IMG/VR virus record: IMGVR_UViG_3300042485_004291
Coordinates: 1-33,623 of that record
Length of the DNA: 33,623 nt
Source: a virus
Reading direction: 5' to 3' (one strand)
Shown: one piece after another, positions 3,929 through 33,377 of the stretch
Numbering within the stretch: the first letter of the stretch is position 1
Layout: every line of letters starts with the position of its first letter
The notes under the pieces: generated by a model
Database searches by the model: none
Told to the model about the DNA's origin: nothing
What the model saw: the letters and a program-made list of their open reading frames with translations, nothing else
Program-made: the position numbers and the translations under genes

Positions 3929-6900
3929 CTATACAGGTGTATTGACAGTACTTGACCATTCTATTTCTGTATATACCTTTAGTTCTTCAGGCTGGTATAT
4001 TAATCCTTCTCCATCATCAATAATAATTTTATTAGTTCCGATGTATGTTTTATAAATATCTAATGGGTTAATTCCATAGAACTCTGATGACCCTAAAACC
4101 AACATTCCTTCCCAAGTAAAATTATTATTCCAGAATTGCCAGTCTAGCGTTGTGAACCCGTCTGTTAAAACTTGAAACCATGACCTAAAAGTAGTGCTTT
4201 CAACTTCCTGTAAACTGCTTGCTTGATAATACGCAATGTTATTAAATAGTGCCTGCCCCGTAATATTTAAACTTCCTAAATAAGAGCTACAGTTTAAAGA
4301 GGTTAAAAATGATATACCGATAGAAGACCACTCTTTAAGTGATAGTACTGGCTCTCTTACAAGAGTGCCATTTAAATAAAATGAAACACCATTATATTGA
4401 ACTCCGTTTTCATTTAAAACAAATACCCTTCCTCTATTTAGGTCAAGACTGTTTGCTTGAATATAAAATTTTAATGTACCTTCTTTATAATTAATTTCAA
4501 ATATTTCTGTTGCTGTTTCTGGAAATATATCTTGGTCGTATTTTAACCACAATTGCATAGCACTTACTTTATAAAAACTTGCTAGCTCTTTGTTGATTGG
4601 CAAAGATAAACCACGATTTTCTAAAATATTTAGTTCTCCACGTATTTCTATTCCTGAGGTATTAGTTAAATGTAGATATGGAGTACTTTCTTTATAAATA
4701 CTAAAAGGATTTTTAGATTTATAGTCAAAATATATACCGTTTTTCTTATATGGAAATAAATCTACTCCAAATCCTGTTCCTACTGGGTTAGAAGAATTAT
4801 TATTAAAAACCTGTGAAGCTAACTGCAACTTGCTTAAACTTATTGGTTTTGTTAAAATTCCACGACTATTGAATTCAAGACTATACACAATGGCAAGGTC
4901 GTTAAAGTCTTCTGTTTTAATTGGATAAATTAATGTGTTGTTTAAAACTTCAAATCTGGTTGTTTTCCAGTTTTCGTAATCATTAATATCAAGAACTTTA
5001 TATTCATTTAGTGTTTGTTCATTCTCAAAAGATGTTGGAATGTTTGCCCCATCAGCAATATATTGGAAGGTTACATAGCTTTTTATTTGTGATCCAGATG
5101 TATCATAATAATACCCAGTAGCTCCAGACTCCTCAACTAATGTTGTTGTTGTTGGATACCCTAAATTAAATTGTAAAAAATCTAAATCGTAATATTCTTC
5201 ATTATTTTTATTTTTTACAAATTGTCCAAAATAAGAAAGAGGTAGGTAATCTTGCCAGTAGCCAGAAACTCCAATATCTAAAAAATATTTTTGATACGCT
5301 TCAGATGGCAAAAGAGTATAGCTTGCTGTATGATCAATCATTGTTAATCCATCTTCTAGAACAACAATTCCATTTTGACTAAAACTATCTGATATCTTAG
5401 AATGATTTATTGCACTACATAAGCCAAGAGAATAAATTCTTCCAGTAAATGCATACTGTCCAGAATCATCACCACCAACATACATTTTCAATAAGTTTTG
5501 ATTTCCAAAAAAAGAGTTTACATTTTTACCAAAATTATTAGATAAATCTCTTAGATTAAATCCTACTGAAAAAATAGTGTTTGCTGTTATTTGATTTGAT
5601 GTAAAAAGTAGTTCAGTATTTCCGCTATAAGTTAAAGAGTATTTAATTTCATCAGCATCTTTGATAACAGAAAAATAATCTTTGGTTATTGGATTGTATA
5701 TTTTAAACAATAATTCTTCAGAAGAAAGATTGCTACAGCTAAAAACACCGTAAAAACTATCAACTTGATTTCCTAAAATATTAAACTTGTCAAAATTAAT
5801 ATAAGTATTTTTAGAATTCCAGCTATTGTTTGGTCTAAATGATAAAAAGTTATTTTCAACAAATGGTCCAGACTCGTTATCCTGTATGTCTTGATTATCC
5901 TCATACAAATCTTTTATTGTTTTTCCATCTAAAAATATTTCAGGCAAGGTGTAATCTGGAGTTTTTAGACTAGTTGTGGTTGTTATTAAATTATCAAAAC
6001 TTCCTTGATTCCATTGTGCAAAATCTGGATAGTTATAATTTGCAGTATAGTCGGCAAATGAATAATCTATAAACGCAGTTGTTCCTCCATACGCTGAGTT
6101 AAGTCCTTCTGGAGACACAACTCCTTGTCCATACACCCATCTACGCTTTGCTACTGTTACTGGAACCTGATAAGAATAAATAGCAACACAATCAATTTCA
6201 AAAGGATATACATTGTTACTTGCATAAAATCCTAGCCAATCTTGATTATTTCCACTATTATCAATTTCGTCTGGCAGATTAAGATTATTGGTGTCTAAAG
6301 ACAAAGACAAAACTTCTTCCCCATTTACCAATAGTGATGCTGAATTTCTAATTAAACGAATATGAATTAGCATTGGTCTAAACCATTCACCAACAAAATG
6401 AGAGGCAAATTGATCACCAATAACTAAAGTTAAAAACCCATCCTCAACATATAGGCCATCATCAGATGAAATTGGTCCAAATATTTTAAATGGAGATAAT
6501 GTGTTTACTGCAACTCTTGCCCAAAACTCAATAGTATAATCGTTATATTGACCTTTTTTATTTAAGAATCCTTTACCTGGAACTATTAAAGAGGCATCTG
6601 TGTTAGGTTTTATGTTTGTTGTTCCGCTTGCACCATATACCAAAGGAATTCCTATATTCTTACACTTCATTCCACCTTCTGTAATATAGTAACCAGAGTC
6701 TTCCGCAATTCCGTATGCTTGAGCTTCTACGGCATTTAAACCACCATAGATGCTTATATCTGATGGAACTGTAGTTTCAGATATTCCATTTAAAGAATAC
6801 GTATTAAACTCTTCATTCCATTGACCCAAAGTAATTCCATTAAAATAAAACTCATTATCAATTGAACTTGAAGATCCTTCAAGTATCTTTATTTTAAAAA

Positions 6901-7393
6901 CAAGTCTTAGTTGTGCTGATACATTTGGTATTTCAAAAGTTTCAGAAATAAATCCCCATTTTTGATACAAAGTACTATTAAAAGTTTTTAAATTTTGAAC
7001 TACTGTAGATGTATTTGGATCTGTATATTCATAACCTATAGAAACGCTTTGTAAAAAAATACTGTTGGAATAAAAATATGTTCCTACTGTAAAAGTTCCA
7101 AGATCTTCAAGTGTATTTATATTTAGTATATTAGGACTGATTATTGATGCTTCAAGAGTTTCTGAAACAGGAACATTTACCCTAACTCTTGTTAAATGAC
7201 TACTAGCAAATGGTTCTTTTAAGTTTTCAGAAGATGATGCAAGAGTAGCACTTGTTGGTGTCCATAATGTTGTAAGATTACGTTGTGCTTCGGAAATTAA
7301 ACTTTTATAGTCAAGGCTATCATCTAGTGCCCACAAAACCAGTGGATGCTCAGAATATATTTTTTCTGCATATAAATTGGATGGGTTAGACAT
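3929..7393 (-). CDS. Large LamG/concanavalin-like virion protein
   Basis: 1154 residues, rich in Asn, Ser, Tyr and beta-strand patterns. The start, NLYAEKIYSEHPLVLWALDD, is of the type seen at the start of large phage minor-tail or adsorption proteins. A concanavalin/LamG-like sandwich is suggested around residues 280-420 (DYTIEFWARV, then HIRLIRNSASLLVNGEEV). A second candidate lies near residues 965-1090 (SAMQLWLKYDQDIF, then GVSFYLNGTLVREPVLSL). Such domains usually bind carbohydrate or build the virion surface. SD AAGGAG (7398-7403) and a TGCTATAAT box upstream support the start. It sits just upstream of the portal block, an unusual place for a tail protein. The exact role is unknown. Confidence 0.7.
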   Translation of the reverse strand: MSNPSNLYAEKIYSEHPLVLWALDDSLDYKSLISEAQRNLTTLWTPTSATLASSSENLKEPFASSHLTRVRVNVPVSETLEASIISPNILNINTLEDLGTFTVGTYFYSNSIFLQSVSIGYEYTDPNTSTVVQNLKTFNSTLYQKWGFISETFEIPNVSAQLRLVFKIKILEGSSSSIDNEFYFNGITLGQWNEEFNTYSLNGISETTVPSDISIYGGLNAVEAQAYGIAEDSGYYITEGGMKCKNIGIPLVYGASGTTNIKPNTDASLIVPGKGFLNKKGQYNDYTIEFWARVAVNTLSPFKIFGPISSDDGLYVEDGFLTLVIGDQFASHFVGEWFRPMLIHIRLIRNSASLLVNGEEVLSLSLDTNNLNLPDEIDNSGNNQDWLGFYASNNVYPFEIDCVAIYSYQVPVTVAKRRWVYGQGVVSPEGLNSAYGGTTAFIDYSFADYTANYNYPDFAQWNQGSFDNLITTTTSLKTPDYTLPEIFLDGKTIKDLYEDNQDIQDNESGPFVENNFLSFRPNNSWNSKNTYINFDKFNILGNQVDSFYGVFSCSNLSSEELLFKIYNPITKDYFSVIKDADEIKYSLTYSGNTELLFTSNQITANTIFSVGFNLRDLSNNFGKNVNSFFGNQNLLKMYVGGDDSGQYAFTGRIYSLGLCSAINHSKISDSFSQNGIVVLEDGLTMIDHTASYTLLPSEAYQKYFLDIGVSGYWQDYLPLSYFGQFVKNKNNEEYYDLDFLQFNLGYPTTTTLVEESGATGYYYDTSGSQIKSYVTFQYIADGANIPTSFENEQTLNEYKVLDINDYENWKTTRFEVLNNTLIYPIKTEDFNDLAIVYSLEFNSRGILTKPISLSKLQLASQVFNNNSSNPVGTGFGVDLFPYKKNGIYFDYKSKNPFSIYKESTPYLHLTNTSGIEIRGELNILENRGLSLPINKELASFYKVSAMQLWLKYDQDIFPETATEIFEINYKEGTLKFYIQANSLDLNRGRVFVLNENGVQYNGVSFYLNGTLVREPVLSLKEWSSIGISFLTSLNCSSYLGSLNITGQALFNNIAYYQASSLQEVESTTFRSWFQVLTDGFTTLDWQFWNNNFTWEGMLVLGSSEFYGINPLDIYKTYIGTNKIIIDDGEGLIYQPEELKVYTEIEWSSTVNTPV

Positions 7394-7437: not shown

Positions 7438-8628
7438 TCAAATATTCCGTCCTTTATTAAAATTTGTATATCCCATACCAGTATCAATGGCTGATAAATT
7501 TTTTGCTTCAAATACCCAACTAGTTAAGTCTTCTCCACCAACGCTTCTATAGTGGTCTGACATTTTTTTGGCTTTTTCAAAAGCTTCACTATTGTTTAAA
7601 ACTTCTTTAGATTCTTTAACTATCCAGTCCCAAAATGGTGTCTCATATGTAGATCCGCCATGATACATATAGTAAATCATATCTGAAACAGACTTTACAT
7701 TTTTATGAAATTCCTCATTAATGTTTAAATTTGGTTTTTGATTAATTTCATCCATTAACAATTTATTAACAATATCATACAAAAATAGTGAATTGGCAAA
7801 CATTGGTTCTAAAAATAAAGCATTATTTCCATTTTTTATTACTTTTCCTTGTATTACATTTTTAGAAATATATGATTTAAAAGAAAACTCAATATTGTCT
7901 AAGTCATTTACTAATACATTTATTTCTTTAGCAAAGTTTATTTTTGCTGCTTCTTTGCTTGTAATGTCGCTATTATATAAATACCCATACGACGTTCTGC
8001 TTTTTAGTGGTATTACAAACATCCATCCGTCTGGTGTTGCAACGTGTTTTGTGTGAAGAAAATTAGATCCATTTTTTATATTGTGAACAAGGCATGAATT
8101 TGTTGTTGAGTTTAATAAATCATAATCATTAAAGTTTTTTGGTTTTCCAGAACAATCCATTATATAATCAAACTCATAAGATAAACCATCTACTACGGCT
8201 ATTGCTTTATTTTCAACTGTTTTTATTTCTTTGACATTTCCTTCTATAACCTTAAATTTGTTTCCCCATTTTTCAAAAAACTCTTTTATTGCCCATTCTT
8301 TTAATTTAAATGTATCTATATGAATAGCAACAGCAGAACCTATTAATGGATTTATAAAATTTTTATTACGCCATTTTTCATACATTGTTCCATATTTAAC
8401 TGTTGCATCTAGACTTCCTCCAACTAATTCGTCATACATGCAAAAATTTGTTCCAGAACTTATGGCATTAACAAATGTAGGAAAAGTACTTTCTCCAATT
8501 CCAAAAATAGAAATATTAGGATCAGATATTGATACAACCTCCCAATCATTGTTTAGATAAGAAAGAAAATGTGCTAAAGACTGAATTCCTGCTGTACCTA
8601 AACCAATAACTGCTATTTTTTTCATCAT
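7438..8628 (-). CDS. Flavin-dependent (tryptophan) halogenase-like protein
   Basis: 396 residues with the landmarks of FAD-dependent halogenases: a Rossmann GLGTAG (residues 9-14), FGIGESTFP (42-50) matching the family GxGExT/SxP signature, and a Lys at position 78 in DATVKYG where the catalytic Lys that forms the chloramine is expected. Further on are WMFVIPLKSRTSYGYLY (202-218), in place of the WxWxIP motif with the second Trp replaced by Phe, and STYETPFWDW near the C-terminus. Known members chlorinate or brominate tryptophan or other aromatics with reduced flavin. This protein is shorter than the usual 500-540 residues, so the substrate cap may be reduced. Two tandem ATGs (8628, 8625) are possible starts. 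The stop of the upstream reductase is only 5 bases away, suggesting co-translation. Confidence 0.75.
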   Translation of the reverse strand: MMKKIAVIGLGTAGIQSLAHFLSYLNNDWEVVSISDPNISIFGIGESTFPTFVNAISSGTNFCMYDELVGGSLDATVKYGTMYEKWRNKNFINPLIGSAVAIHIDTFKLKEWAIKEFFEKWGNKFKVIEGNVKEIKTVENKAIAVVDGLSYEFDYIMDCSGKPKNFNDYDLLNSTTNSCLVHNIKNGSNFLHTKHVATPDGWMFVIPLKSRTSYGYLYNSDITSKEAAKINFAKEINVLVNDLDNIEFSFKSYISKNVIQGKVIKNGNNALFLEPMFANSLFLYDIVNKLLMDEINQKPNLNINEEFHKNVKSVSDMIYYMYHGGSTYETPFWDWIVKESKEVLNNSEAFEKAKKMSDHYRSVGGEDLTSWVFEAKNLSAIDTGMGYTNFNKGRNI

Positions 8629-8633
8629 GAATT

Positions 8634-10664
8634 TTAATATAGCTTAATTTCGCATGCATCTGTTGAACAGTAAGACTCACCTTGAGCTTCAAGATTATCA
8701 ATACCATCATAAATAGCAGACCAATCAATTTTTCCAATTGTCCCAACATATGCGTTATATTCTTCTTTTGTAATCTCTGTATAGGGCTGTTGTGGATATG
8801 TCTTATTTCCCATAGGAAGAAATGAAACTGCCTTAAGTTGACCCTCATACATATGAAGTGCTGGAGCAATAAACTTTGTTTCTTCTTCTTTATCAAACGA
8901 CAATGTAACTGAAACTCCGTTATCTGACCAGTATTTCTGAGCAGTTGCAGCTAATCCAATTTTTTCAAACAGACTTACTTGTTTTTCTGATCGTTGATGT
9001 CCTGATGCTACTGGGAAATATACTACTTCAGTATTTGCAGAAACAAGGTCTTTTTCAATTTTATACCCTGCTGCTCTAAATAAATGCATCATTGGGTCAG
9101 TATTTCCAAAACGAATAGCTCTTAAATAAAATTGACCACCTGGTCCCCAGTGAACTCCAGGGGTAGCACCAGAAAGAAGTGAAACTGACCCAGAAGGTTT
9201 TACAGTAGTTACACGAATTGATTCACGAACACACAGCCATTCTGAGTATTGTTTATCATAACTACGAATCTTTTTATAACCTTCATCCATCCATTCACGA
9301 GTTACTGGTAATCCATTTTGATCTGCAAAAGATGCAATTCCAGTAAGAGATGTTCCAATACGACGATTACGTTGCATAATTCCATTAGTAATCTGCCAAT
9401 GTGTTGGAAGAAGGGTTACAGTCTTTCCATAAAGATATGCAAACTTTAATGTCTTTAAAAAGTCTTCCTTGGAGTCATGGCGATTAAGGTGTACCTCTAC
9501 AAGAGTACACAACTCATAACTTTCTAGTGGCTGTTCAGCACAAGGATTAAAACCCATTACACGATAATCTTTTCCATCTGCTGGATCTGCAAGACGACCA
9601 AAGTTACGAGCAACATCTAACCAGATAAATCCTGGTTCACCGTTGTCTGCAATTAAATTTACATAATCTTCATATTTTGTTCCAACCTCAGCAGCAATTG
9701 AATTGTTACTCATCCATGCCCAACCTGGGTTTTCTGAATCATAAGAGTTACGTTCTGGAAATACCTCTGGATTTTTAAGGTTAATAAAGTTTTTATCTTT
9801 TGGAGTACCTAAAGCAAGTGTTGCAGAACGACGAACATTTCCAGAAACAACACATGTTCCAATAAGATTTACTATATCTGTAATTGCACGTGAATCAAGA
9901 AGATCCCCAGTTCTTCCACCAATTACTTTATCAATTCTATTATGTAAATCAATTAATGGTTGTGGTCCAGATGCCACACCTCCAAAACCTTTAATTGGTG
10001 CACCCAATGGACGAATCTCAGAATAATCAAACTTTTGAATATTTTGATTTTGACGAAGGTAAGAGTTTAATAACATACGAACTGACTCTACCCATCCTTC
10101 ACGGGTATCAGGAATAACATAGGTATTAACGGGCTCTGTAGGGGCATAGATAAGCATTTCTTTGTCCTGACCTAATGTATCAAAACCTACTCCAATACCC
10201 AGCATAAGGGCGTCCATAACCCATGAGAAGAGTGCTCCTGGGTCATTACGATCAATGTCCCTAGTGGATACCATTGCACAGTTTTGTAGGGCAGCTGAGT
10301 TACGTTTTTCCATTGTCATTGGAGTTCCAAATGTCCACATTCCACGACCTGGAGGAGTCCATTTTAATTCAAACATTCTTTGAAATGCTTCTTGGGCAGA
10401 TTTTTGTGCTTTATTATCATTCCATGGAAGTCTATTTTCTTTAGCATGGTTTTTTTGAACTGAGTACATACCCTCAATTACACGCTTACAGACTTCGTGC
10501 CATCTTTCTTTTGTTCCGTCGTCTTTCATCCGTGAATATGTTCTTATAAATGTAATCTCACCTAATGAATTAGATCCTGCATCTGTAAAACCAAAAGGAG
10601 CTACCATTGTTGAATATTTATTTATAAAATCATCTGACAAACGAAAAGAAAAGATATCTGACAT
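8634..10664 (-). CDS. nrdJ: Class II (adenosylcobalamin-dependent) ribonucleoside-triphosphate reductase
   Basis: 676 residues. It reduces ribonucleotides to deoxyribonucleotides for phage DNA synthesis using a cobalamin-generated thiyl radical. The key cysteines of the monomeric RTPR type are present. C129 (ALQNCAMVS) and C386 (ESYELC) form the active-site redox pair. C375 in FNPCAEQPLE is the likely thiyl residue, 11 residues before C386 as in the Lactobacillus enzyme. The C-terminal shuttle pair C666/C671 (CSTDAC) has the same spacing as that enzyme. TVKPSGSVSLLSGATPGVH is the family phosphate-binding loop. It is slightly shorter than the 739-residue bacterial enzyme. SD GAAAGG precedes the ATG and a TGATATACT box lies about 60 bases upstream. 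The host must supply or salvage B12. Confidence 0.95.
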   Translation of the reverse strand: MSDIFSFRLSDDFINKYSTMVAPFGFTDAGSNSLGEITFIRTYSRMKDDGTKERWHEVCKRVIEGMYSVQKNHAKENRLPWNDNKAQKSAQEAFQRMFELKWTPPGRGMWTFGTPMTMEKRNSAALQNCAMVSTRDIDRNDPGALFSWVMDALMLGIGVGFDTLGQDKEMLIYAPTEPVNTYVIPDTREGWVESVRMLLNSYLRQNQNIQKFDYSEIRPLGAPIKGFGGVASGPQPLIDLHNRIDKVIGGRTGDLLDSRAITDIVNLIGTCVVSGNVRRSATLALGTPKDKNFINLKNPEVFPERNSYDSENPGWAWMSNNSIAAEVGTKYEDYVNLIADNGEPGFIWLDVARNFGRLADPADGKDYRVMGFNPCAEQPLESYELCTLVEVHLNRHDSKEDFLKTLKFAYLYGKTVTLLPTHWQITNGIMQRNRRIGTSLTGIASFADQNGLPVTREWMDEGYKKIRSYDKQYSEWLCVRESIRVTTVKPSGSVSLLSGATPGVHWGPGGQFYLRAIRFGNTDPMMHLFRAAGYKIEKDLVSANTEVVYFPVASGHQRSEKQVSLFEKIGLAATAQKYWSDNGVSVTLSFDKEEETKFIAPALHMYEGQLKAVSFLPMGNKTYPQQPYTEITKEEYNAYVGTIGKIDWSAIYDGIDNLEAQGESYCSTDACEIKLY

Positions 10665-10722
10665 TTTAAACCTTTCAAAGTAAAAATAAGTTAAGTACTT
10701 TAAGAATCCTAAAGTAGTGTTA

Positions 10723-10731
10723 AGTATATCA
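10723..10731 (-). promoter_or_regulatory. nrdJ: Extended -10 of nrdJ
   Basis: TGATATACT about 58 bases before the nrdJ ATG, in the 155-base gap 10665-10819. No clear -35. A 50-base untranslated leader remains between box and SD; no riboswitch fold was recognised in it. Confidence 0.55.
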
Positions 10732-10819
10732 TAGTTTAAAGTATTAGAATTACGCTTAAATAAAATTTCTATATGTATTGTTTAGGTTTAGAACTTTAAC
10801 AAAACAATAGTTGTCTTAC

Positions 10820-11488
10820 TTATCCAAACTTACTACTATTGATGTGACACATCTCTATTTGATTTATATTTAAGTGTTTAGGTAAAGATCCAACCCAGTA
10901 TATTGCTTCTGCTAAATCTTTTGCTTTTAAAGCATTTTCTCTTTTTTGTTCTTGGGTATCAATTGTGGCTGGACAAATTTCTGTTATTTTAATATTATAT
11001 TCTGGAAATTCTAGTCTCATAGTATCTATAAGTCCTCGTTCTCCACGCTTAGCATTAGTATAGTTTCCCCCACCACGATATGGAATTTTTCCTCCAAAAG
11101 ATGTAACAAACACAATTGTTGGAGATTCAGACCTTTTCATACATGGAATAAATAGTTGGGATAGATACATAGGTCCAGTTACGTTTATGTCGTATGCTAC
11201 CCTGAAGTTTTCTGGAGTTTCGTCAATTATTTTAGTTGGAGAAGATCCACCACCAGCATTGTTTACTAAAAGGTCAAGGGTTATATTTTTGTACTTTTCA
11301 AAAAAAATTTTTATTGCTTTAGAGTCTGTAATGTCTAGTTGATAAACCTCAACATTATCAGAAATTAACCCAGAAACTTTTGACAGATTTCTTGAAACAG
11401 CAATAACATTATATCCATTTTCAGATAAAAACTTTACTGTTGCATAGCCAACACCTTTACTAGCCCCAGTTACTATGGCTGTTTTCAA
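10820..11488 (-). CDS. Short-chain dehydrogenase/reductase (SDR)
   Basis: 222 residues, a compact classical SDR. Nucleotide-binding TGASKGVG is at residues 7-14, NNAG at 76-79, catalytic Ser at 130 (FVTSFGG) and the YxxxK pair Y143/K147 in NYTNAKRG. Members oxidise or reduce alcohols and ketones with NAD(P)H. Arg33 after the second strand (VSRNL) suggests a preference for NADP(H), which is weak evidence. The substrate cannot be told. It lies 2 bases downstream of a dioxygenase gene in the same direction, so it is probably expressed with the oxygenase cluster and may act on the same product. Confidence 0.88.
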   Translation of the reverse strand: MKTAIVTGASKGVGYATVKFLSENGYNVIAVSRNLSKVSGLISDNVEVYQLDITDSKAIKIFFEKYKNITLDLLVNNAGGGSSPTKIIDETPENFRVAYDINVTGPMYLSQLFIPCMKRSESPTIVFVTSFGGKIPYRGGGNYTNAKRGERGLIDTMRLEFPEYNIKITEICPATIDTQEQKRENALKAKDLAEAIYWVGSLPKHLNINQIEMCHINSSKFG

Positions 11489-11490
11489 AA

Positions 11491-12156
11491 TTAATGAATC
11501 CAGTGCTGTGGAACCATTATCTTTTCACCACTTTTAACTAGGTGTGCTGTGTGGTGATATGGTGGTGATGGAGGGAACACAATAATGCTACCTGCTTTTG
11601 GTTTTACAAAAAACGTAAAAGACTCTGGATTATTCTTTGCAATTTCCATATCAGGATCTGGTCCACCATAGGATATTGGTCCATCAATTTTTTTGCCACC
11701 GTCAGATATTGGACCATCAGGTGATTTTATAGTAAAAGATATTTCTCCGCCTTCATAGTCATCATTTAGGTACATAACAAAAGAAACTTTAAGTCTTTCG
11801 TCTCCTTCTTGCTGATCAAAGTGTGCACCCATAAATGTTCCTGCCTGATATTTTTTGATTGGATATTGAGGAAACAGCTTTGGTTCATCAGTAATTCCTT
11901 GAGCTTTTGCATAATCTCTTGCAACATCGTCAAATGCTTTTTGCAAAGTATTATAAATATACTTATCCTGATCATTAGCATCTGGAGTTAAAAAAATAGT
12001 TTTATCTGTTCCGTAAACATAATGTTGACCACTACAAGCCATCCACTCTCCCCACTCATCCTTATTGTCTTTTTCAATTGCTTCAACAAGTTTCTTAGGG
12101 TCTTCAATTACATCTTTGTAATAATAAACCTTTTCTTCAAGTATTTCTCTTTGCAT
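11491..12156 (-). CDS. 2-oxoglutarate/Fe(II) dioxygenase, prolyl-hydroxylase-like (1)
   Basis: 221 residues. Double-stranded beta-helix landmarks: H112 and D114 in GAHFDQQ, VMYLNDDYEGGEISF, KPKAGSIIVFPP, distal H202 and a Lys at 212 (SGEKIMV), where many members have Arg to hold 2-oxoglutarate. Collagen prolyl 4-hydroxylases also use Lys here, so activity is plausible. A Gly/Pro/Asp-rich insert of about 30 residues (PDGPISDGGKKIDGPI) lies between the two core motifs and is absent from the neighbours. SD AAGGAG is 7 bases before the ATG. The reaction is hydroxylation or other C-H oxidation of an unknown substrate. Confidence 0.9.
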   Translation of the reverse strand: MQREILEEKVYYYKDVIEDPKKLVEAIEKDNKDEWGEWMACSGQHYVYGTDKTIFLTPDANDQDKYIYNTLQKAFDDVARDYAKAQGITDEPKLFPQYPIKKYQAGTFMGAHFDQQEGDERLKVSFVMYLNDDYEGGEISFTIKSPDGPISDGGKKIDGPISYGGPDPDMEIAKNNPESFTFFVKPKAGSIIVFPPSPPYHHTAHLVKSGEKIMVPQHWIH

Positions 12157-12170
12157 TTTTATCTCCTTTT

Positions 12171-12830
12171 CTAGTATTTATTATTAACATAAAAATTTTT
12201 TATTTTTATAAAACCAACCAAAACATATCTTATTGGACCTTTTCCTACGTGTTTAACTCCATGATTAAACTCTTCCGTTCCTGGAAAAAATATAAGTGTT
12301 CCTGCTTTTGGTTTTAATTCTAAGTTTTTATTTACAAAAAACAACTCGCCGTCAATGTAATCATCATTTAAATATAAAATTGTTGCATATTTAATTGCTG
12401 GGTCAGTATCTTTGTCTGTATGCGCTTTTAATTCTACACCCTCTTGCATTCTTTGAAAAGTAACCATCCCAGTTTGCTCTAAAGATGAATCTGCTGTTTC
12501 TACAACAGCAAGAATCTTGTTTAACCATGACATAACTATAGGATCTCCATGGGTATCATAGTTTTTGTCTTGCCATCCCTGGGTAATTTCAAATTTTCCC
12601 TCTGCAACTAAATTTTCTACATCATCTCTACCAAATTTTTCTAAACAAAATCTTTTTAAGTTTTTTGTGTACTCTATATTCCAATCATCTTCTGTTAAAT
12701 TATTTATAATACCCTTAATATAATCTAACTCTTCACTACTAGCAAAGTTTTCAATAACTAAAACCTGATCAATAGGCTCTTGAACTATAAAACCAATATC
12801 TTCTAATTCTTTTTTTAAAAAGGTAGCCAT
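12171..12830 (-). CDS. 2-oxoglutarate/Fe(II) dioxygenase (2)
   Basis: 219 residues. Iron ligands are H137 and D139 (KAHTDKD) and H190 (FNHGVKH), with R201 for 2-oxoglutarate. The core shows ATILYLNDDYIDGELFF and KPKAGTLIFFPG. The N-terminal 110 residues are helical and unlike those of the neighbouring oxygenases, so the substrate pocket probably differs. A basic Asn/Lys/Tyr-rich tail follows the core. It starts 2 bases after the stop of the previous gene with AAAGGA upstream, consistent with one polycistronic message. The family is clear; the substrate is unknown. Confidence 0.9.
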   Translation of the reverse strand: MATFLKKELEDIGFIVQEPIDQVLVIENFASSEELDYIKGIINNLTEDDWNIEYTKNLKRFCLEKFGRDDVENLVAEGKFEITQGWQDKNYDTHGDPIVMSWLNKILAVVETADSSLEQTGMVTFQRMQEGVELKAHTDKDTDPAIKYATILYLNDDYIDGELFFVNKNLELKPKAGTLIFFPGTEEFNHGVKHVGKGPIRYVLVGFIKIKNFYVNNKY

Positions 12831-12831
12831 T

Positions 12832-13581
12832 TTAGTCTATATCCTTTGCCTTATACTTATTCCCATTGGCATCTAGCTTCCATCCTTGTTTTAGTAACTT
12901 TTGCCATTCAGCCCTTTCAATTTCTTGTTTTGCTCTAGTTTCTTTCATTTCTTTTGCCCAAGAATCTCTTAACTCTTGTGGATAATCAGACTCTTCTCTA
13001 TCATCCCAGAAAGAACCTATGGTGTACCTTATTCCACTTTCTATTAGGGATACTTCGTGCATGTTGTTGAATCCTCCATCAAAAACTGCAAGCATTCCAA
13101 CCTTTGGCTCAATGTCTATATTCTGATCTGGAAACTTTAATAGTCCGCCTTCAAAGTCATCATTTAAGTAAAGAAATCCAGCATATCTGCTTCTTGTAAA
13201 AGCTCCCGATTTTCCTTCAGCATCTGTGTTATCTGAGTGTATTCTTGCAAATGCTCCTGGCTCCCATTTTTGTGTGTGGTATCCAATCTTAGAAATTGTT
13301 TTTGGATCTAAATCATGAACAGATGCTATTGCTTCTGGCATTATATTTTCAATATCTGAAAAAATTGTTGGAATTAATCCAGCATCAAGAACTTCCTGAT
13401 CTCCATCCTTTGGAAGAATAGATGAGTATGATTCATAAAAAGAAATTGGCATCCAGGATATTTTACCGTTATTTGCTTGTGCATCTAAAGCATTAATCAT
13501 TTTTTGACAAGTCTTCTCATCAATAAAGTTTTCGTATACTACTATATCTTTCGTTATTCTTTTTTTATTGTTTAAATTCAT
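12832..13581 (-). CDS. 2-oxoglutarate/Fe(II) dioxygenase (3)
   Basis: 249 residues. H115 and D117 (ARIHSDN), H175 (NMHEVSL) and R185 (ESGIRYTIGSFW) form the iron and 2-oxoglutarate site. FLYLNDDFEGGLLKF and EPKVGMLAVFDGG complete the core. A charged C-terminal extension of about 50 residues rich in Glu, Lys and Trp (residues 195-249) is predicted helical and could mediate protein contacts. The gene overlaps the preceding one by 4 bases (ATGA type), so translation is coupled. The substrate is unknown; similar phage proteins are usually annotated as prolyl 4-hydroxylase-like. Confidence 0.9.
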   Translation of the reverse strand: MNLNNKKRITKDIVVYENFIDEKTCQKMINALDAQANNGKISWMPISFYESYSSILPKDGDQEVLDAGLIPTIFSDIENIMPEAIASVHDLDPKTISKIGYHTQKWEPGAFARIHSDNTDAEGKSGAFTRSRYAGFLYLNDDFEGGLLKFPDQNIDIEPKVGMLAVFDGGFNNMHEVSLIESGIRYTIGSFWDDREESDYPQELRDSWAKEMKETRAKQEIERAEWQKLLKQGWKLDANGNKYKAKDID

Positions 13582-14252
13582 GGCTTTTTATTTCCTGTAT
13601 GTTCTGTGATCTCCCAAAAAAATGGACAGGTATATCTTATACCACTTTTAATTTCTGTTACTCCGTGAACATAGTTCATATCTCCTGGGAAAAAATACGC
13701 TGCACCCTTTTTAGGTTTAAACTGTACACCCTGTAGTGGGAAATATAGCTCTCCACCCTCATAGTCTTCATTTAAATAAAATAGACTTGAAAGGTCGTAG
13801 TTTGGAAAATCATTAGGAAGTCCTGCATCTGGACCTTCGTGCAGTTCTTTGTCTGCGTGAGGGTTCTGAAATTGGCCTGGTAGCCATCTAACAATAGTTG
13901 TACCAGTAGGTGTAACCTTTACCTTATAAAACTCTTCAACTATTGGCTTAAGCCTTTGAAATAATCCTGCAATTACTGGAGCAATTGTTGGATCATTTTT
14001 ATCTAAAGTTGGACTAGTTGCTACCCTATCTTTCCAATATTCAGAGTCATAGACAACCGTTCCGTTTTCATTAACATGGCTTTGAGTTACATCCCAAATT
14101 GTTAAAGATTTTGCAGCCTTTTCTAAAAACTCTATTTCTTCTTGAGTCATAAAATTTTCTAACTCAACAATCATTTCTTTTCCACTGCCAAAAAATCCTG
14201 AAGGCGTCATGGATGGAGTTCTTTTAACAACTTGTGCATTATTATTTGTCAT
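13578..14252 (-). CDS. 2-oxoglutarate/Fe(II) dioxygenase (4)
   Basis: 224 residues. H132 and D134 (NPHADKE), H196 (YVHGVTE) and R206 (KSGIRYTCPFFW) mark the active site. LFYLNEDYEGGELYF and KPKKGAAYFFPG are typical of the prolyl-hydroxylase-like branch. A loop rich in Pro, Asp and Gly (residues 138-152) follows the HxD motif. The ATG at 14252 has no SD, but a TATAAT box ends exactly 6 bases upstream, so a leaderless transcript from inside the cluster is possible. This would allow genes 14252 to 10820 to be transcribed separately from the upstream part of the island. Confidence 0.9.
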   Translation of the reverse strand: MTNNNAQVVKRTPSMTPSGFFGSGKEMIVELENFMTQEEIEFLEKAAKSLTIWDVTQSHVNENGTVVYDSEYWKDRVATSPTLDKNDPTIAPVIAGLFQRLKPIVEEFYKVKVTPTGTTIVRWLPGQFQNPHADKELHEGPDAGLPNDFPNYDLSSLFYLNEDYEGGELYFPLQGVQFKPKKGAAYFFPGDMNYVHGVTEIKSGIRYTCPFFWEITEHTGNKKP

Positions 14253-14258
14253 AATATG

Positions 14259-14264
14259 ATTATA
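14259..14264 (-). promoter_or_regulatory. Internal promoter in the dioxygenase cluster
   Basis: TATAAT overlapping the end of the upstream gene; the ATG at 14252 follows after exactly 6 bases with no SD. Confidence 0.55.
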
Positions 14265-14973
14265 CCCCTTTTCTATTATCTTTTACAGATAGGCGTAGAG
14301 TTGTTACTTCATGACTTCCTATTTTTTCTCCATGCTCATTAGTTGCATTTCTATACCAGTTTGTCCATTTTCCAACAGAAATATTTTTTTGTGAAGCTAT
14401 TCCATATGACTTATTTTTATTTTCTCTTACTCTTCCTGGATCTGAATAATCAAAAATTTGTATTTCAGTTTTATCCATTGCTGACAGCGAAATTGGTATA
14501 ATTGTTGCAATAGGCTCTCCAGCTTTTATTAATATTTCTTTATTGGCAATTTTTGCCCTTATTGCTAAAGGAAACCCAGTGTCTAGCCAAGAAGTGCTTA
14601 TTACTGTTGCAATTGTTTCAAAGTCATTATTAAAGTAGTTTACTGGATTAATCGTCATAATACTAACATTTTTATCTGACCTAATTACAATTCCAGTGTG
14701 TATGCTTAAACTTGACTGACCTCTTCCAGTATATGCAAAATCTTCACCTTCTAAAATTGTTACATGATCTTGACTTGTATCATTAACTCCATCCCAAATA
14801 AACCTTATGTCTTTATCAAGTGAAAGATTCCATCCAACCATGTTTGCTGAAGTTACTGGAAAACATCTATATGCGTGTTTATCTGGTGTTTTATCTAGCC
14901 AATCTCTTTTTATAGACATTGGAGAAATTGTCACTAAAGACTCTTGAAATTTTTCAACTGTTATATTTAACAT
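14260..14973 (-). CDS. DUF6065-like protein (1)
   Basis: 237 residues with a pattern I associate with the DUF6065 family: HAYRCFPVTSANMVGWNL, a SLSIHTGIVIRSDKNVSIM section, TVISTSWLDTGFPLAIRAKI and KAGEPIATIIPISL. The family has no established function. The C-terminal 60 residues are polar and may be a separate tail (SVGKWTNWYRNATNEHG). It starts 5 bases after the stop of a dioxygenase and lies between two dioxygenases, which suggests a shared pathway. The family assignment is from memory of its motif pattern and should be treated as likely rather than certain. Confidence 0.6.
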   Translation of the reverse strand: MLNITVEKFQESLVTISPMSIKRDWLDKTPDKHAYRCFPVTSANMVGWNLSLDKDIRFIWDGVNDTSQDHVTILEGEDFAYTGRGQSSLSIHTGIVIRSDKNVSIMTINPVNYFNNDFETIATVISTSWLDTGFPLAIRAKIANKEILIKAGEPIATIIPISLSAMDKTEIQIFDYSDPGRVRENKNKSYGIASQKNISVGKWTNWYRNATNEHGEKIGSHEVTTLRLSVKDNRKGV

Positions 14974-14978
14974 TAGTC

Positions 14979-15650
14979 TTAATCTTCAACATACATTTCT
15001 GCAGTATGAAACTTTTTGTTATAGTCTAACATAGTGACAATAGAGTATTTTGTGCCTGAGTGAACTGGCATTGCTTGATGAGGGTACATATAGTTAGATG
15101 GAAATATAAAAAGATCTCCAGCTTTTGGTTTAATGTTTAGGTTTTGTAATCTAAAGTATAACTCTCCACCTTCATAATCATCATTTACATATGCAACTAA
15201 AGAAACTGTACAATTATATGAAAATCCATGATCATGATGTTCTTTAAAATGTTGACCTGGACCATATTTAATAAAATTAAATGCCTCCCAATATTTTAAA
15301 TCTCCAAGGTTGTGATCTCTTCTATAGTCATCAACGGCTTGAACCTGAGCATCATAAATATCTTGCCACAAAGATTGTAGCTTTAAGGAATCTTCGCTAA
15401 GATCTTGTTCTATGTCTGTTTTTTTAAACTTAAAATCGTAACAATCTCTGTAGTCTGGCATAAGTTGCTTATATCCAACATATGCTGGCATCCAATGATA
15501 ACTTTTTCCTTCAGGAGACAGCTCTCCCATTTCAGCAACAGAGCCTAAGGTTTCTTCAAGTCTATTGATTACATCAAGCTCTTTTTTTATAACATTCCTA
15601 TAGAGAACAATTCCGTTTCCAAGGTTTTCTTTTTCTGTCCATGTTTTCAT
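14979..15650 (-). CDS. 2-oxoglutarate/Fe(II) dioxygenase (5)
   Basis: 223 residues from the ATG at 15650 (MKTWTEKE), chosen because SD AAGGAG (15659-15664) and a TGCTATAAT box (15673-15681) lie directly upstream. A start at 15710 would add 20 residues across those signals. The active site is H138 and D140 (KEHHDHG), H191 (YPHQAMP) and Lys201 (SGTKYSIV) in the 2-oxoglutarate position. It is a close paralogue of the enzyme at 16479-17213: both share RDCxDFK, AFNF[IV]KY, DHGxxYNCTVS and IFPSNYxY. The ORF region before 15650 overlaps the end of the neighbouring gene only if the longer start is used. Confidence 0.9.
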   Translation of the reverse strand: MKTWTEKENLGNGIVLYRNVIKKELDVINRLEETLGSVAEMGELSPEGKSYHWMPAYVGYKQLMPDYRDCYDFKFKKTDIEQDLSEDSLKLQSLWQDIYDAQVQAVDDYRRDHNLGDLKYWEAFNFIKYGPGQHFKEHHDHGFSYNCTVSLVAYVNDDYEGGELYFRLQNLNIKPKAGDLFIFPSNYMYPHQAMPVHSGTKYSIVTMLDYNKKFHTAEMYVED

Positions 15651-15672
15651 TATATTTTCTCCTTTATATATT

Positions 15673-15681
15673 ATTATAGCA
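15673..15681 (-). promoter_or_regulatory. Extended -10 of dioxygenase (5)
   Basis: TGCTATAAT followed by SD AAGGAG (15659-15664) and the ATG at 15650. Confidence 0.6.
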
Positions 15682-15685
15682 CTAT

Positions 15686-16477
15686 CTAGATATATTTTCT
15701 TCTTGACCATATTTTATTTTTATAAATACCACCATCTGGTTTACGATAAAAGTTTGAATTATCCATTAATTTATTATAGATTTCTTTTTGATCTAAAACT
15801 TCTATTTTTTGTTTCCAGTCTTCTCTTTTAAAAGGAAAAATTTGCAAATATGGAGTTCCTTCTGGTAAAACCCCTTCCCAACCTTCTACAATAAAAAATG
15901 GAAATGTTCCAAGTATATGAACTTTATCACAATCAACTATACCAGTTGTGTTTAAAAATGGTAAATCAAACCTATTCATTGGTGTCATAAACAAAGCACT
16001 ATATCCTTCTGGAAGCTCTAATCCCCAATTTGAATACCAAGCAAAATGTTCCCTATAAAAACCTTTTGGATGTTCAAACTGTGGCATAGGTGCTCTTTTA
16101 AGGCAAAAATCTTCATACTTTTTATCAGATACCTTAACGTCAATGCTTCCTTTTTCATTTTTAAAAAATGTAAGATCGCATGGAGTTTTTAATACATACC
16201 CTGTTGAAAAACCATCCATAATTGCTGGGCATGCTTTCCATGTTGGAATTTTTCCATAATCTGAATCTGTTCCTTCTTTTGGAATTGGACATACTTCTTT
16301 TGTTGCTTTATAATATTCTTCAGTAAATGGATTTTTTGCAAATCGGTCTGCATTTTTATACCAGGAAGGTATCACAGACTGTGTTGTAGATGGTGCAGAA
16401 AAACTTTTTTCATTTAACCATGGCCTATAAGGCCTAAATGTAATTACGTTTTCATCTTGATTATTTTTTTTAAACAA
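15686..16477 (-). CDS. DUF6065-like protein (2), TTG start
   Basis: 263 residues. ITFRPYRPWLNEKSFSAP opens the protein, then VIPSWYKNADRF, CPAIMDGFSTGYVL, HFAWYSNWGLELPEGYSALFM, FPFFIVEGWEGVLPEGTPY and QIFPFKREDW. The order of elements (a buried central strand region, then G-x-P-x-x-x-I-x-P) parallels the other DUF6065-like gene here, but sequence identity is low. The only in-frame start before the conserved part is TTG at 16477, one base after the TAA of the preceding gene, so translational coupling is likely. The function is unknown; its place between two paralogous dioxygenases is the main clue. Confidence 0.55.
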   Translation of the reverse strand: MFKKNNQDENVITFRPYRPWLNEKSFSAPSTTQSVIPSWYKNADRFAKNPFTEEYYKATKEVCPIPKEGTDSDYGKIPTWKACPAIMDGFSTGYVLKTPCDLTFFKNEKGSIDVKVSDKKYEDFCLKRAPMPQFEHPKGFYREHFAWYSNWGLELPEGYSALFMTPMNRFDLPFLNTTGIVDCDKVHILGTFPFFIVEGWEGVLPEGTPYLQIFPFKREDWKQKIEVLDQKEIYNKLMDNSNFYRKPDGGIYKNKIWSRRKYI

Positions 16478-16478
16478 C

Positions 16479-17213
16479 TTATTTATGACCTAGTTGATTA
16501 ATATCTGTCATGATTACCACACAATATTTTGTTCCTGATTTCATTGGCAAAGAAGCATGCTCATAGATGTAGTTTGATGGAAAAATTGCTATATCGCCAA
16601 CCTTTGGTTTATGTGTGTAACCATCTAGTCTTGGAAACCTAATTTCTCCACCATCATAGTTATCATTAATATATATTACAGCAGATACTGTACAGTTATA
16701 TGCTGGTCCGTGATCTGCATGTATATTAAAATGCGTTCCTTCACCTTCGTATTTTACAAAATTAAAGGCTTCGTAATAAACAACGCTTATGCCCCAATAT
16801 TTAGCATAATCATCTACGCAATATTTTAACTTTTCATATATTTCTTGATGAAGGTCTAAAAGCTCTGTATTGTGTTCATCTCTTGGACCTAAATCTTCTT
16901 GTTTATATTTAAAATCTATGCAGTCTCTTGCTCTTTTGATTGGTGTTGGAGAGTTAGTAACTGTTGCATCAGCCCATTTATATTTTTTATTATTTGATAA
17001 ATTTGATTCAAGTATGTTTATATATCTGTTTGCATCATCAATAGAAAAAACATTTTTATATATATTTAATCCTATACCTGGATTTTCAACAGTAATTTTT
17101 TCATCAAGCACTCTATCAATTCTTTTTGATGTTGTTTCTGATCTATCTTTAGTAAACCATGGGTTTGTATTTTCATCATCATATGCACTATTAGGTAATC
17201 TTTTGTTTTCCAC
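16479..17213 (-). CDS. 2-oxoglutarate/Fe(II) dioxygenase (6), GTG start
   Basis: 244 residues. H165 and D167 (NIHADHG), H219 (YEHASLP) and Lys229 (SGTKYCVV) form the predicted active site. INDNYDGGEIRF and KPKVGDIAIFPSNY complete the core. It is paralogous to the 14979-15650 enzyme but has an extra 30-residue polar N-terminus. GTG at 17213 is supported by AAGGAG 7 bases upstream (17221-17226) and a TGATACAAT box (17241-17249). This is therefore the likely first gene of the accessory-enzyme operon. Confidence 0.9.
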   Translation of the reverse strand: MENKRLPNSAYDDENTNPWFTKDRSETTSKRIDRVLDEKITVENPGIGLNIYKNVFSIDDANRYINILESNLSNNKKYKWADATVTNSPTPIKRARDCIDFKYKQEDLGPRDEHNTELLDLHQEIYEKLKYCVDDYAKYWGISVVYYEAFNFVKYEGEGTHFNIHADHGPAYNCTVSAVIYINDNYDGGEIRFPRLDGYTHKPKVGDIAIFPSNYIYEHASLPMKSGTKYCVVIMTDINQLGHK

Positions 17214-17265: not shown

Positions 17266-17553
17266 TTATTTTGTAATATTTTTTAAAGTTTTAACTTCAT
17301 TTTCTAAATTTTCTACTTTTTCTAATAATATTTTTAAAACCTCTATAGAGTAGACAGAAAGAAGGTCATATTTAAGACCTAGTGGATTATTATCTTTGTC
17401 TAGAACAACGATATATTTAAGAGAGTCTATCTCATTAACTTCTTCTGCTATGTAGCCAATATGCCTGATCTCTTTAAGATCGCCATTGTATACCCATGTG
17501 ACAGGATTCAAACTTTTTATAGTTTTTTCAAAATCAATTTCTACTAACCCCAT
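17266..17553 (-). CDS. S74-type intramolecular chaperone domain, stand-alone
   Basis: 95 residues that match the later part of a peptidase S74 / endosialidase chaperone domain: EKTIKSLNPVTWVYN, IGYIAEEVNEI, a KYDLLSVYSIEVLKIL helix and a C-terminal coiled coil (LLEKVENLENEVKTLK). Such domains normally sit at the C-terminus of a trimeric fibre, drive its folding and then cut themselves off. Here the domain is a separate ORF, and its usual first motif (S-x-x-R-[FY]-K) is found at the end of the upstream FN3 gene. SD AAAGGGG lies about 12 bases before the ATG. It may assist folding of the upstream fibre in trans, or be a remnant of a split gene. Confidence 0.75.
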   Translation of the reverse strand: MGLVEIDFEKTIKSLNPVTWVYNGDLKEIRHIGYIAEEVNEIDSLKYIVVLDKDNNPLGLKYDLLSVYSIEVLKILLEKVENLENEVKTLKNITK

Positions 17554-17572: not shown

Positions 17573-18346
17573 TTATTTTGACTTTTTACTAAACACCCTC
17601 AAGATGCTGTGCTTAAATCTCTTAGATGAGTATGCAAATCCTGGGAAGAATGGACCAAATCCTGGTGGGAAGAATGGACCAAATCCTGGGAAGAACGGGA
17701 AGAACGGAAAGAATGGTGGGAAAAATGGCGGGAAGAATGGAAAGAACGGTGGGAAAAATGGAGGAGTTGTTACACTAGTAGATGCACTTGAAACTAAAGA
17801 GTTTCCATTTGCATTTGTAGCATAAACCGTGTAAGTCTGTGAAGTATTTGCCTCTTGAGTAACGTTAACACTTGTTGTTCCTGAACCTACAGTAGCGCCT
17901 TTACTATCTGATGATGCCCATGTATATCCAGAAATAGCTTTACCACCATTTGCAGGGGCTACCCAAGAAACAGCATCATTAAGTGCTGAAGTTACTACAG
18001 TTGGTGCTGCAGGTGTTGCTGGAACAGTTGTTGCAGTAATAGAAGCAGAAGCAGAAGATGCATCAGAAGTTCCTGAAGCATTAGTACCAGTAACTGTAAA
18101 CGTATATGCAGTATTTGACTGCAATCCTGTAACTGTAAGTGGAGAAGAGCCTCCTGTTGCAGTAAAAGATCCAGGAGATGATGTTACTGTAAACGACGTT
18201 GCTGTTGCTCCTGCTCCTGCAGTAAATTCTACACTAGCAGCACCATTATTAAATGCACGACTTGTTCCTACGTCAGTTGCTGTAACGCTTGTTGGTACTC
18301 CTGGTGCACCCTTAGCTGAAGAGCCAATTACCCCTAAAATATCCAT
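17573..18346 (-). CDS. FN3-domain fibre protein with PFFP repeat tail (1)
   Basis: 257 residues from the ATG at 18346, which overlaps the preceding stop as TAATG. Two fibronectin type III-like domains lie at about residues 15-105 and 108-195 (SGYTWASS, SQTYTVYATNANGNS). A tract of about 45 residues follows, built almost only of Pro, Phe and a few Gly (PFFPPFFPFFP). The end is YSSKRFKHSILRVF, which looks like the first motif of an S74 chaperone domain that then stops. The second FN3 domain, the PFFP tract and the tail are shared with the protein at 24761-25804. FN3 domains on phage tails often bind cell-surface glycans. The PFFP tract is unusual and its role is unknown. Confidence 0.75.
   Translation of the reverse strand: MDILGVIGSSAKGAPGVPTSVTATDVGTSRAFNNGAASVEFTAGAGATATSFTVTSSPGSFTATGGSSPLTVTGLQSNTAYTFTVTGTNASGTSDASSASASITATTVPATPAAPTVVTSALNDAVSWVAPANGGKAISGYTWASSDSKGATVGSGTTSVNVTQEANTSQTYTVYATNANGNSLVSSASTSVTTPPFFPPFFPFFPPFFPPFFPFFPFFPGFGPFFPPGFGPFFPGFAYSSKRFKHSILRVFSKKSK
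17638..17763 (-). repeat. PFFP-coding short tandem repeat
   Basis: On the plus strand the tract is a run of GGGAAGAATGG-type units of 9-12 bases with few substitutions, encoding PFFP on the minus strand. Unit number differs from the second copy at 24830-24919, so the tract probably changes length by slippage or recombination. Confidence 0.8.
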
Positions 18347-24137: not shown

Positions 24138-24165
24138 TTGTTCTCTAGGAGGTATTTTACAATGA
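24118..24165 (+). CDS. Candidate 15-residue leader peptide of lysozyme
   Basis: ATG at 24118 lies exactly 6 bases after the -10 box, the spacing used by the leaderless genes of this window. It opens a 15-codon ORF (MLPIGSICSLGGILQ) whose TGA overlaps the lysozyme ATG as ATGA. It reads straight through the lysozyme SD (AGGAGGT). This could couple or gate lysozyme translation. Short ORFs arise by chance, so the support is the double coincidence of promoter spacing and ATGA overlap. Confidence 0.45.
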   Translation: MLPIGSICSLGGILQ

Positions 24166-24707
24166 GAGAGGCAAAAGTTTGGCTAGGGGTGTTTGTTTTA
24201 GTTCTTTGTAGTGCCGTTTTTTCTGGTTCTGCAAAAGCTACTAACGAAAACAATTTATTAAGCAAAAAGTCTTTAGAGGTTTCTGCCACCCCACAGGTGG
24301 CTTTTTTGGTTTCTAAAGAAAAAAAGCTTGAAAAATATGAAAATGCTCATAAATTAACTGATGAGCAACTAGTTGATATGTTGAAAGCTGTTGGATTTAA
24401 GGAGAAGGCTTTGAGGTCTGCTTGTGCTATTGCAAAGGCAGAATCTAATGGTCGTCCCCTTGCTTTTAACGGTAATGTAAAAACAGGAGATAGTTCTTAT
24501 GGTGTATTTCAAATAAATATGCTTGGAGAACTTGGGTCAGATCGTAGAGAAAAGTTTGAACTAGATTCAAACGCTGAGTTGTTAAACCCAGTTGTTAACG
24601 CACAGATTGCTCTCCACATGACTAAGGGTGGAGAAGATTGGTCAGCATGGTCATCCCTTAATGGGAAACGGTATCAAGAATGGTACTCTAAATATCCATG
24701 TAAGTAA
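24162..24707 (+). CDS. Secreted lysozyme/transglycosylase-like endolysin
   Basis: 181 residues from the ATG at 24162, which has an excellent SD (TAGGAGGT). Residues 1-26 are a Sec signal peptide (REAKVWLGVFVLVLCSAVF, cut after SAKA). A charged linker follows, then a lysozyme-like domain at about residues 60-181. ACAIAKAESNGRPLAFN carries the likely catalytic Glu, SSYGVFQINM is the substrate-groove motif, and WSAWSSLNGKRYQEWY is the C-terminal signature of transglycosylase-like muralytic enzymes. It should cut peptidoglycan outside the membrane during entry or lysis. It is the only gene in the tail cassette on the plus strand, with its own promoter and terminator. A terminator-like hairpin lies inside it at 24285-24307. 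Confidence 0.88.
   Translation: MREAKVWLGVFVLVLCSAVFSGSAKATNENNLLSKKSLEVSATPQVAFLVSKEKKLEKYENAHKLTDEQLVDMLKAVGFKEKALRSACAIAKAESNGRPLAFNGNVKTGDSSYGVFQINMLGELGSDRREKFELDSNAELLNPVVNAQIALHMTKGGEDWSAWSSLNGKRYQEWYSKYPCK
24285..24307 (+). terminator. Intrinsic-terminator-like hairpin inside the lysozyme gene
   Basis: GCCACC, loop CCACA, GGTGGC, then six T: a textbook intrinsic terminator, but about 40 codons into the lysozyme ORF, in the linker after the signal peptide. It would cut the message short unless ribosomes or an antiterminator prevent folding, so it may act as an attenuator for lysis timing. Confidence 0.6.
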
Positions 24708-25804: not shown

Positions 25805-25805
25805 C

Positions 25806-33365: not shown

Positions 33366-33371
33366 AAAATC

Positions 33372-33377
33372 ATTATA
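33372..33377 (-). promoter_or_regulatory. Leaderless-type -10 of sulfotransferase-like gene
   Basis: TATAAT, 6 bases, ATG (33365). Confidence 0.55.

Follow-up and report, generated by a model that had tools for sequence, protein, structure and literature searches.

An operon of 2-oxoglutarate dioxygenases and DUF6065 proteins adjoins the gene of a Pro/Phe-repeat tail protein in phages and is a candidate system for virion-protein hydroxylation

Introduction

On the accounts cited here, the hydroxylation of virion proteins by viral enzymes is already established in chlorovirus and mimivirus (PMC9301287, PMC9614988): 4-hydroxyproline has been reported in viral proteins of PBCV-1 (Eriksson 1999, as cited in PMC9301287), and mimivirus virions contain hydroxylysine (PMC9614988). 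T4-like cyanophages also encode 2-oxoglutarate (2OG)-Fe(II) oxygenases, often several per genome (PMC3037559), which show structural likeness to EGLN3 (PMC12774648) and for which roles in 2OG balance or DNA repair have been proposed (PMC3037559). Here we analyse a 33.6-kb viral DNA from IMG/VR (record IMGVR_UViG_3300042485_004291, positions 1–33,623; 'the window' throughout), in which six such dioxygenases form an operon with two DUF6065-type proteins, next to the gene of a tail protein whose repeat consists almost purely of proline and phenylalanine.

The dioxygenases of aquatic phages are among the commonest of the genes termed 'auxiliary metabolic', so far without a convincing substrate. 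A sequence-only reading of the window had described positions 7438–17213 as an oxidation/halogenation island that may build a modified small molecule, modify nucleotides or DNA, or modify virion proteins. Of these three options, the modification of virion proteins alone gains evidence from the analysis below and the other two gain none. We think it probable, if well short of certain, that the block of 2OG dioxygenases and DUF6065 proteins, with or without a short-chain dehydrogenase/reductase (SDR), is a virion-protein modification operon whose dioxygenases hydroxylate the Pro/Phe repeat of an FN3-(PFFP)n stalk.

Results

Linkage of the operon to the FN3-(PFFP)n gene

Loci were fetched from IMG/VR by D65b (one of the two DUF6065-type proteins), by the halogenase-like protein and by the portal, and genes were mapped on them. 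The operon and the FN3-(PFFP)n gene are strongly linked, and the linkage holds in both directions. Each locus that reaches far enough upstream of the operon has an FN3-PFFP gene there. For the reverse direction, a degenerate DNA pattern for PFFPPFFPFFP was searched for in 2.9 million viral contigs, the earlier loci being added, and at least 94 open reading frames (ORFs) with at least 4 kb of downstream sequence were counted. Among the matches listed, 89 of 94 repeat ORFs are followed on the same strand by dioxygenases no more than 4 kb away, and 86 of the 94 by DUF6065 as well. The five exceptions among these matches include three second copies, at loci where the locus or its record has the operon (L139, L189, L201), and one ORF whose operon lies elsewhere in its record (L125); the fifth is considered in the Discussion. 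L209 and others were rejected as exceptions, the operon being present in the same record. A search of 84,980 bacterial and archaeal species genomes gave a single FN3-PFFP ORF; on its 5.3-kb contig the operon genes OXf-OXe-D65a-D65b-OXd come after it. Of six PFFP matches in bacterial genomes, five fall outside the FN3 proteins and seem to be coincidental. Because the enzyme set almost always adjoins the gene of the repeat protein, that protein is the one it most likely hydroxylates.

As a control for ancestry, 37 records were picked by portal similarity alone, to avoid selection on either trait. The PFFP repeat and a close D65b orthologue occur in exactly the same three of them (Fisher p = 1.3e-4). 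Two further records have 2OG genes, with a diverged operon and diverged F/P repeats: in one, the DUF6065 and 2OG genes adjoin the gene of an FN3 protein that has PFGF repeats and ends in a Hint-like tail, and in the other a (PPPF)n FN3 protein is encoded upstream of the 2OG/DUF6065 cluster. The portal tree requires at least five or six changes of island state, and in five of five independent pairs the repeat agrees with the island. Some of the negative records are fragments; in the negatives nearest to the window (L044, L046, L048) a tail-fibre gene lies directly beside the ribonucleotide reductase (RNR) gene, and none of the 24 island-free portal loci showing the region upstream of the RNR gene has a coding F/P-rich ORF. 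The F/P-rich ORFs of L102, an apparent exception to the linkage, are antisense.

The repeat proteins

The FN3-(PFFP)n tail protein directly upstream of the operon in the window (17573–18373, minus strand), the proposed substrate, has 266 residues from a TTG start, an alternative being the ATG at 18344–18346. It has a 40-residue P/F/G repeat and a basic C-terminal tail, and the repeat itself, PFFPPFFPFFPPFFPPFFPFFPFFPGFGPFFPPGFGPFFP, consists of P and FF with little else (PFFPPFFPFFP...). Another FN3-(PFFP)n protein, of 357 residues (24761–25834, minus strand), is a proposed second substrate; its repeat and C-terminal tail are similar, and in their C-terminal parts the two proteins are 67% identical. 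Across 145 ORFs, Phe makes up 52% and Pro 43% of the repeat stretch (95% F+P), and the roughly 4,000 strings between prolines are dominated by FF (2397), the empty string, that is PP (1327), and YF (170). The repeat uses all four Pro codons and both Phe codons, and it is therefore the protein sequence that is conserved.

The C-terminal tips that follow the repeat vary completely and may be basic, Cys-rich, Hint-like or absent. Hint-like ends, recognised by eye, are found on FN3-PFFP/PFGF proteins at L013:632–1936, L033:6244–7716 and L245:7919–9181, where Pfam found fn3 only; a Hint-like domain hints at self-cleavage or self-splicing of the tail protein. Short, highly variable Cys-rich tips, occupying the C-terminal 25–40 residues, occur in L015, L017, L018, L201 and others, and are unusual for a phage protein made in the reducing cytoplasm.

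The dioxygenases

All six dioxygenases exceed the curated cut-off of PF13640 (34–59 bits against 27): OXf (16479–17213, GTG start; E-value 4e-11), OXe (14979–15710; 1e-15), OXd (13578–14252; 5.2e-9), OXc (12832–13581; 4.7e-8), OXb (12171–12830; 1e-11) and OXa (11491–12156; 3.5e-10). The listed start of OXe is the longest possible one, and its relatives begin near residue 21 (MKTWTEKENLG). All six retain the HxD...H iron triad and the distal Lys/Arg, bearing out the sequence-only reading on the iron ligands, and these residues are essentially invariant over 60–133 orthologues of each; H112, D114 and H202 of OXa, for instance, are present in 77 of 77 sequences, and H165, D167, H219 and K229 of OXf are conserved among its orthologues. 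All six groups keep the Asp of HxD, which is Gly or Ala in the signature of SyrB2-type 2OG halogenases, and OXd alone matches the TET/JBP family (PF12851), at 19.7 bits against a cut-off of 34.9.

By sequence, the solved structures nearest to the OX profile are prolyl 3-hydroxylase 1, a bacterial prolyl 4-hydroxylase (P4H), PKHD and the lysyl hydroxylase LH3. The model of OXf (pLDDT, a measure of model confidence, of 80) has a prolyl-hydroxylase fold, with a Foldseek E-value of 1e-9 to HIF prolyl hydroxylase 2 (PHD2) and further matches to an algal P4H with (Ser-Pro)5, the P. putida P4H and the viral P4H of PBCV-1. The OX enzymes thus resemble prolyl hydroxylases, and from this likeness of sequence and modelled fold peptidyl-proline hydroxylation is predicted.

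The DUF6065 pair

The sequence-only reading had called two proteins DUF6065-like. This holds by Pfam for D65a (14260–14973; PF19541, 3.6e-29, 102 bits against a cut-off of 26.6), whereas D65b (15686–16477) has no Pfam match and is tied to DUF6065 through a shared family, phrog_7084 (2.4e-33). The model of D65b (pLDDT 93) has a dUTPase-like fold (Z 9.8, root-mean-square deviation 2.4 over 118 residues), its top Foldseek matches being dUTPases and dCTP deaminases. Across 39 D65b sequences, Asp182, Asp184, Gln212 and Arg218 do not vary. The Asp and Gln residues align with dUTPase motifs 3 and 4, an assignment made by eye, and there is no Pfam dUTPase match. Since the invariant residues of D65b are replaced in D65a, comparison of the two suggests a catalytic/non-catalytic pair. 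A DUF6065 sequence profile gave only chance matches in the PDB, and no mention of DUF6065 was found in the literature searched. Haloviral DUF6065 genes were rejected as a clue to function: they lie beside thymidylate synthase, or beside RNR and a methylase, and no 2OG gene is annotated nearby.

Composition of the operon and its neighbours

The region 7438–17213 holds eleven genes, one more than the sequence-only reading had counted, all on the minus strand: six PF13640 dioxygenases, two DUF6065-type genes, an SDR, an RNR and a Trp_halogenase-family flavoprotein. The order of the genes is OXf, D65b, OXe, D65a, OXd, OXc, OXb, OXa, SDR, RNR, halogenase-like gene. The six dioxygenases, SDR, class II RNR and halogenase-like flavoprotein that it had placed in one direction were thus all recovered; the overlaps or gaps of under 15 bases that it had described apply to the first nine genes, OXf to SDR (−25 to +14 bases), and give way to 155 bases between SDR and RNR. 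The term oxidation/halogenation island is wrong as a description: the region comprises a backbone RNR, a separate halogenase cargo and the conserved 2OG/DUF6065(/SDR) operon, and its limits end before the linked gene at 17573–18373. The unit proper is the block from OXf to OXa, with the SDR optional. In 32 of 33 complete copies the two DUF6065 types are accompanied by five or more dioxygenases (up to nine), in nearly constant order, and the genes are not the scattered, independent cargo that the earlier reading had named as the contrary finding. The SDR (10820–11488; FabG-like, PF00106 5.5e-39, with TGASKGVG and YTNAK motifs) is the last operon gene and is present in 14 of the 33. In one clade a third D65b-like gene replaces it before the RNR gene (L022:16309–16836, L026:7307–7978, L029:7277–8011, L031:16318–17052).

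The class II (adenosylcobalamin) RNR (8634–10664) scores 346 bits against a cut-off of 340 with the RTPR equivalog profile TIGR02505. Synteny rules it out as a member of the island. The backbone order is RNR, LAM, small protein, portal, protease, capsid, where LAM (3929–7393, minus strand) is a large structural protein of 1154 residues without a family match. In 20 loci of relatives without the island a tail-fibre gene is followed directly by the RNR gene, and in Streptomyces phage Yaboi the RNR gene likewise lies shortly upstream of the portal gene. Because RNR stands beside LAM and the portal in island-free relatives, and near the portal in Yaboi, we assign it to the backbone.

The flavin-dependent halogenase-like protein (7438–8628; PF04820 5.5e-28, 98 bits) is also excluded by synteny, as separate cargo in a variable slot. 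It is confined to the close clade of the window, where it forms three clusters at 85% identity and invariably lies between RNR and LAM; in other relatives a cobalamin adenosyltransferase fills that slot. The latter (PF01923, tested in L056) is found at L056:5592–6107 and also in L062, L069, L081 and L083, and its place beside RNR fits the dependence of that enzyme on adenosylcobalamin. The nearest phage halogenase, from cyanophage S-SSM5, adjoins replication and late-transcription genes. The halogenase-like protein has the FAD motif GLGTAG and the motif DATVKYG, the lysine of which we take to be equivalent to PrnA K79. All homologues fetched have EPMFANSL, with Phe where the EPLES motif has its second Glu, E346 of PrnA, and the protein is therefore not filed as a tryptophan halogenase.

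Between the operon and the repeat gene lies a small protein of the Peptidase_S74 type (endosialidase chaperone; 17266–17553, minus strand), which occurs in only some relatives, and upstream of the repeat gene is a tail-fibre protein with an Mtd_N domain (18346–20529, minus strand). A plus-strand gene with an SLT_3 lysozyme-like domain (24138–24707) sits inside the otherwise minus-strand tail region, and a similar gene, again opposite to its neighbours, is present in L244, L249 and L251. Further fibre-like virion proteins are a collagen-like protein (28047–28766) and one with a weak match, below cut-off, to the BclA C-terminal domain (29833–30327). A 224-residue protein at 32733–33407 has a P-loop-like IYLEGIERSGN motif and appears sulfotransferase-like by eye, without a family match.

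A megablast search with 25 kb of the window found no match among phage genomes. WhiB genes, typical of actinobacteria and their phages, are present in 9 of 16 long related records, and the portal is closest to those of Streptomyces phages; from these two indications the hosts are most likely actinobacteria. We presume a freshwater setting, following the sequence-only reading and general knowledge.

Discussion

From the linkage and its recurrence across the portal tree, the conserved gene order, the intact active sites and the fold similarity we infer a substrate, the residues modified, roles for the DUF6065 proteins and the SDR, and a benefit to the virion. The dioxygenases would be peptidyl hydroxylases of the prolyl-hydroxylase type, and their targets would be the Pro/Phe-Phe stalks of the FN3-(PFFP)n tail proteins encoded directly upstream. 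The paralogues may be specialised for different positions along the repeat or for different sites, namely C3 or C4 of proline and possibly the Phe side chain. D65b and D65a could act as a catalytic/non-catalytic pair or as a scaffold that presents the stalk; the dUTPase-like fold is normally trimeric. An unmodified Pro/Phe polymer should be poorly soluble, and hydroxylation would add polarity and stiffness, for which hydroxyproline-rich cell-wall proteins offer an analogy. A very hydrophobic polymer might thus become a hydroxylated stalk of better solubility, perhaps also rigid or adhesive, with the variable C-terminal tip attached to it. More tentatively, since we hold this fuller picture slightly less likely to be right than wrong, freshwater actinobacterial phages may build a hyper-hydroxylated Pro-Phe-Phe stalk polymer with five to nine site-specific hydroxylases and a dUTPase-fold scaffold; it would be a new virion material, made post-translationally, and, to our knowledge, the first protein-hydroxylation system of a bacteriophage.

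Several points weigh against hydroxylation of the repeat by the operon. The fifth exception to the linkage, on a 38-kb fragment of another phage type (L167, record G003), has no PF13640 or DUF6065 match. Its PFFP stretch (L247:5085–6062, from the same record) lies in a protein of another kind, among collagen-like genes, and may be a counter-example or show the repeat in a second use. It is not obvious what a dUTPase-like fold would do in protein hydroxylation, and no close D65b homologue was found in cultured phages. The Foldseek ranking of OXf is skewed by the many PHD2 entries, and the sign test on five independent pairs has a floor of 0.0625 and cannot pass p = 0.05. Finally, joint travel as a cassette would give linkage without contact between enzyme and substrate. 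If repeat gene and operon are swapped as one tail module, the enzymes might act on another tail protein or on the host surface, and the cassette does occupy one site, between the tail-fibre genes and RNR, comes and goes among close relatives and has MTD fibres nearby. We nevertheless consider such hitch-hiking unlikely, given that the composition of the repeat stays almost pure across very different phages though the tips vary completely, that diverged enzyme sets pair with diverged F/P repeats, and that the enzymes are akin to prolyl hydroxylases, proline making up about 43% of the repeat.

The remaining alternatives carry far less weight. An altered base made by RNR, the dUTPase-fold protein and the dioxygenases would draw on the fold of DUF6065, on the Asp and Gln of D65b that align by eye with motifs 3 and 4, on the RNR gene next door and on the weak Tet_JBP match of OXd. 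However, RNR is a backbone gene independent of the island, D65a has lost the Asp/Gln residues, the Tet_JBP match is far below cut-off, the operon has no glycosyltransferase or DNA-modification partner, and the PFFP linkage would be left unexplained, all of which makes nucleotide or DNA modification very unlikely. We give marginally less credence still to the FN3-PFFP protein being a precursor from which the operon makes a secreted modified peptide, akin to the ribosomally synthesised and post-translationally modified peptides, or another small molecule. Many C-terminal tips are indeed short, Cys-rich or Hint-like, and peptide pathways do include 2OG enzymes, SDRs and halogenases, yet the gene stands among tail-fibre genes and has FN3 domains, the tips are not conserved, and the operon shows neither an exporter nor a leader-binding protein. 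Least probable of all is that the dioxygenases serve the collagen-like virion protein, although such enzymes modify collagen-like viral proteins in chloroviruses and mimivirus (PMC9614988; Eriksson 1999, as cited in PMC9301287) and the window encodes one. Among the 37 portal-selected records a collagen pattern is found in two of three with the island and four of 34 others, against three of three and none of 34 for PFFP, and the collagen-like protein was rejected as a partner on the ground that its presence or absence does not track the island.

The near one-to-one link to the repeat protein supplies a concrete and testable candidate substrate, and if the operon does hydroxylate the repeat, part of the dioxygenase gene pool would shift from metabolism to virion assembly. 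It would also yield a new hydroxylated biopolymer, together with sets of specific prolyl or phenylalanyl hydroxylases and their natural substrates. We know of no demonstration of protein hydroxylation of this sort in bacteriophages, and no report of hydroxyproline in a bacteriophage virion was found in the literature searched.

Amongst known systems, the P4H of the chlorovirus PBCV-1 is likewise a virus-encoded 2OG prolyl hydroxylase, and its structure (5c5t) is among the best matches by fold and sequence; it differs in being a single enzyme of a eukaryotic virus, without a multi-enzyme operon, DUF6065 or a Pro-Phe-Phe polymer. Mimivirus L230, a collagen lysyl hydroxylase/glycosyltransferase, is also a viral 2OG hydroxylase acting on a repeat protein, but it targets Lys of Gly-X-Y repeats, glycosylates as well, and belongs to a giant virus of amoebae. 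The cyanophage 2OG-Fe(II) oxygenases (PHROG 61) share the Pfam/PHROG family and some adjoin tail-fibre genes, but they are not seen as an operon with DUF6065; as a parallel they were set aside, the neighbouring fibres in S-H9-1 having no P/F-rich repeat. The dUTPase/dCTP deaminase family provides the best fold match for D65b, with the Asp and Gln positions kept, but there is no sequence-family match, the residues are lost in D65a, and D65b is about twice the length of a dUTPase. As far as the literature searched shows, the novelty lies in an operon of several enzymes, in its pair of DUF6065 proteins, in the proposed Pro-Phe-Phe substrate and in the occurrence in bacteriophages.

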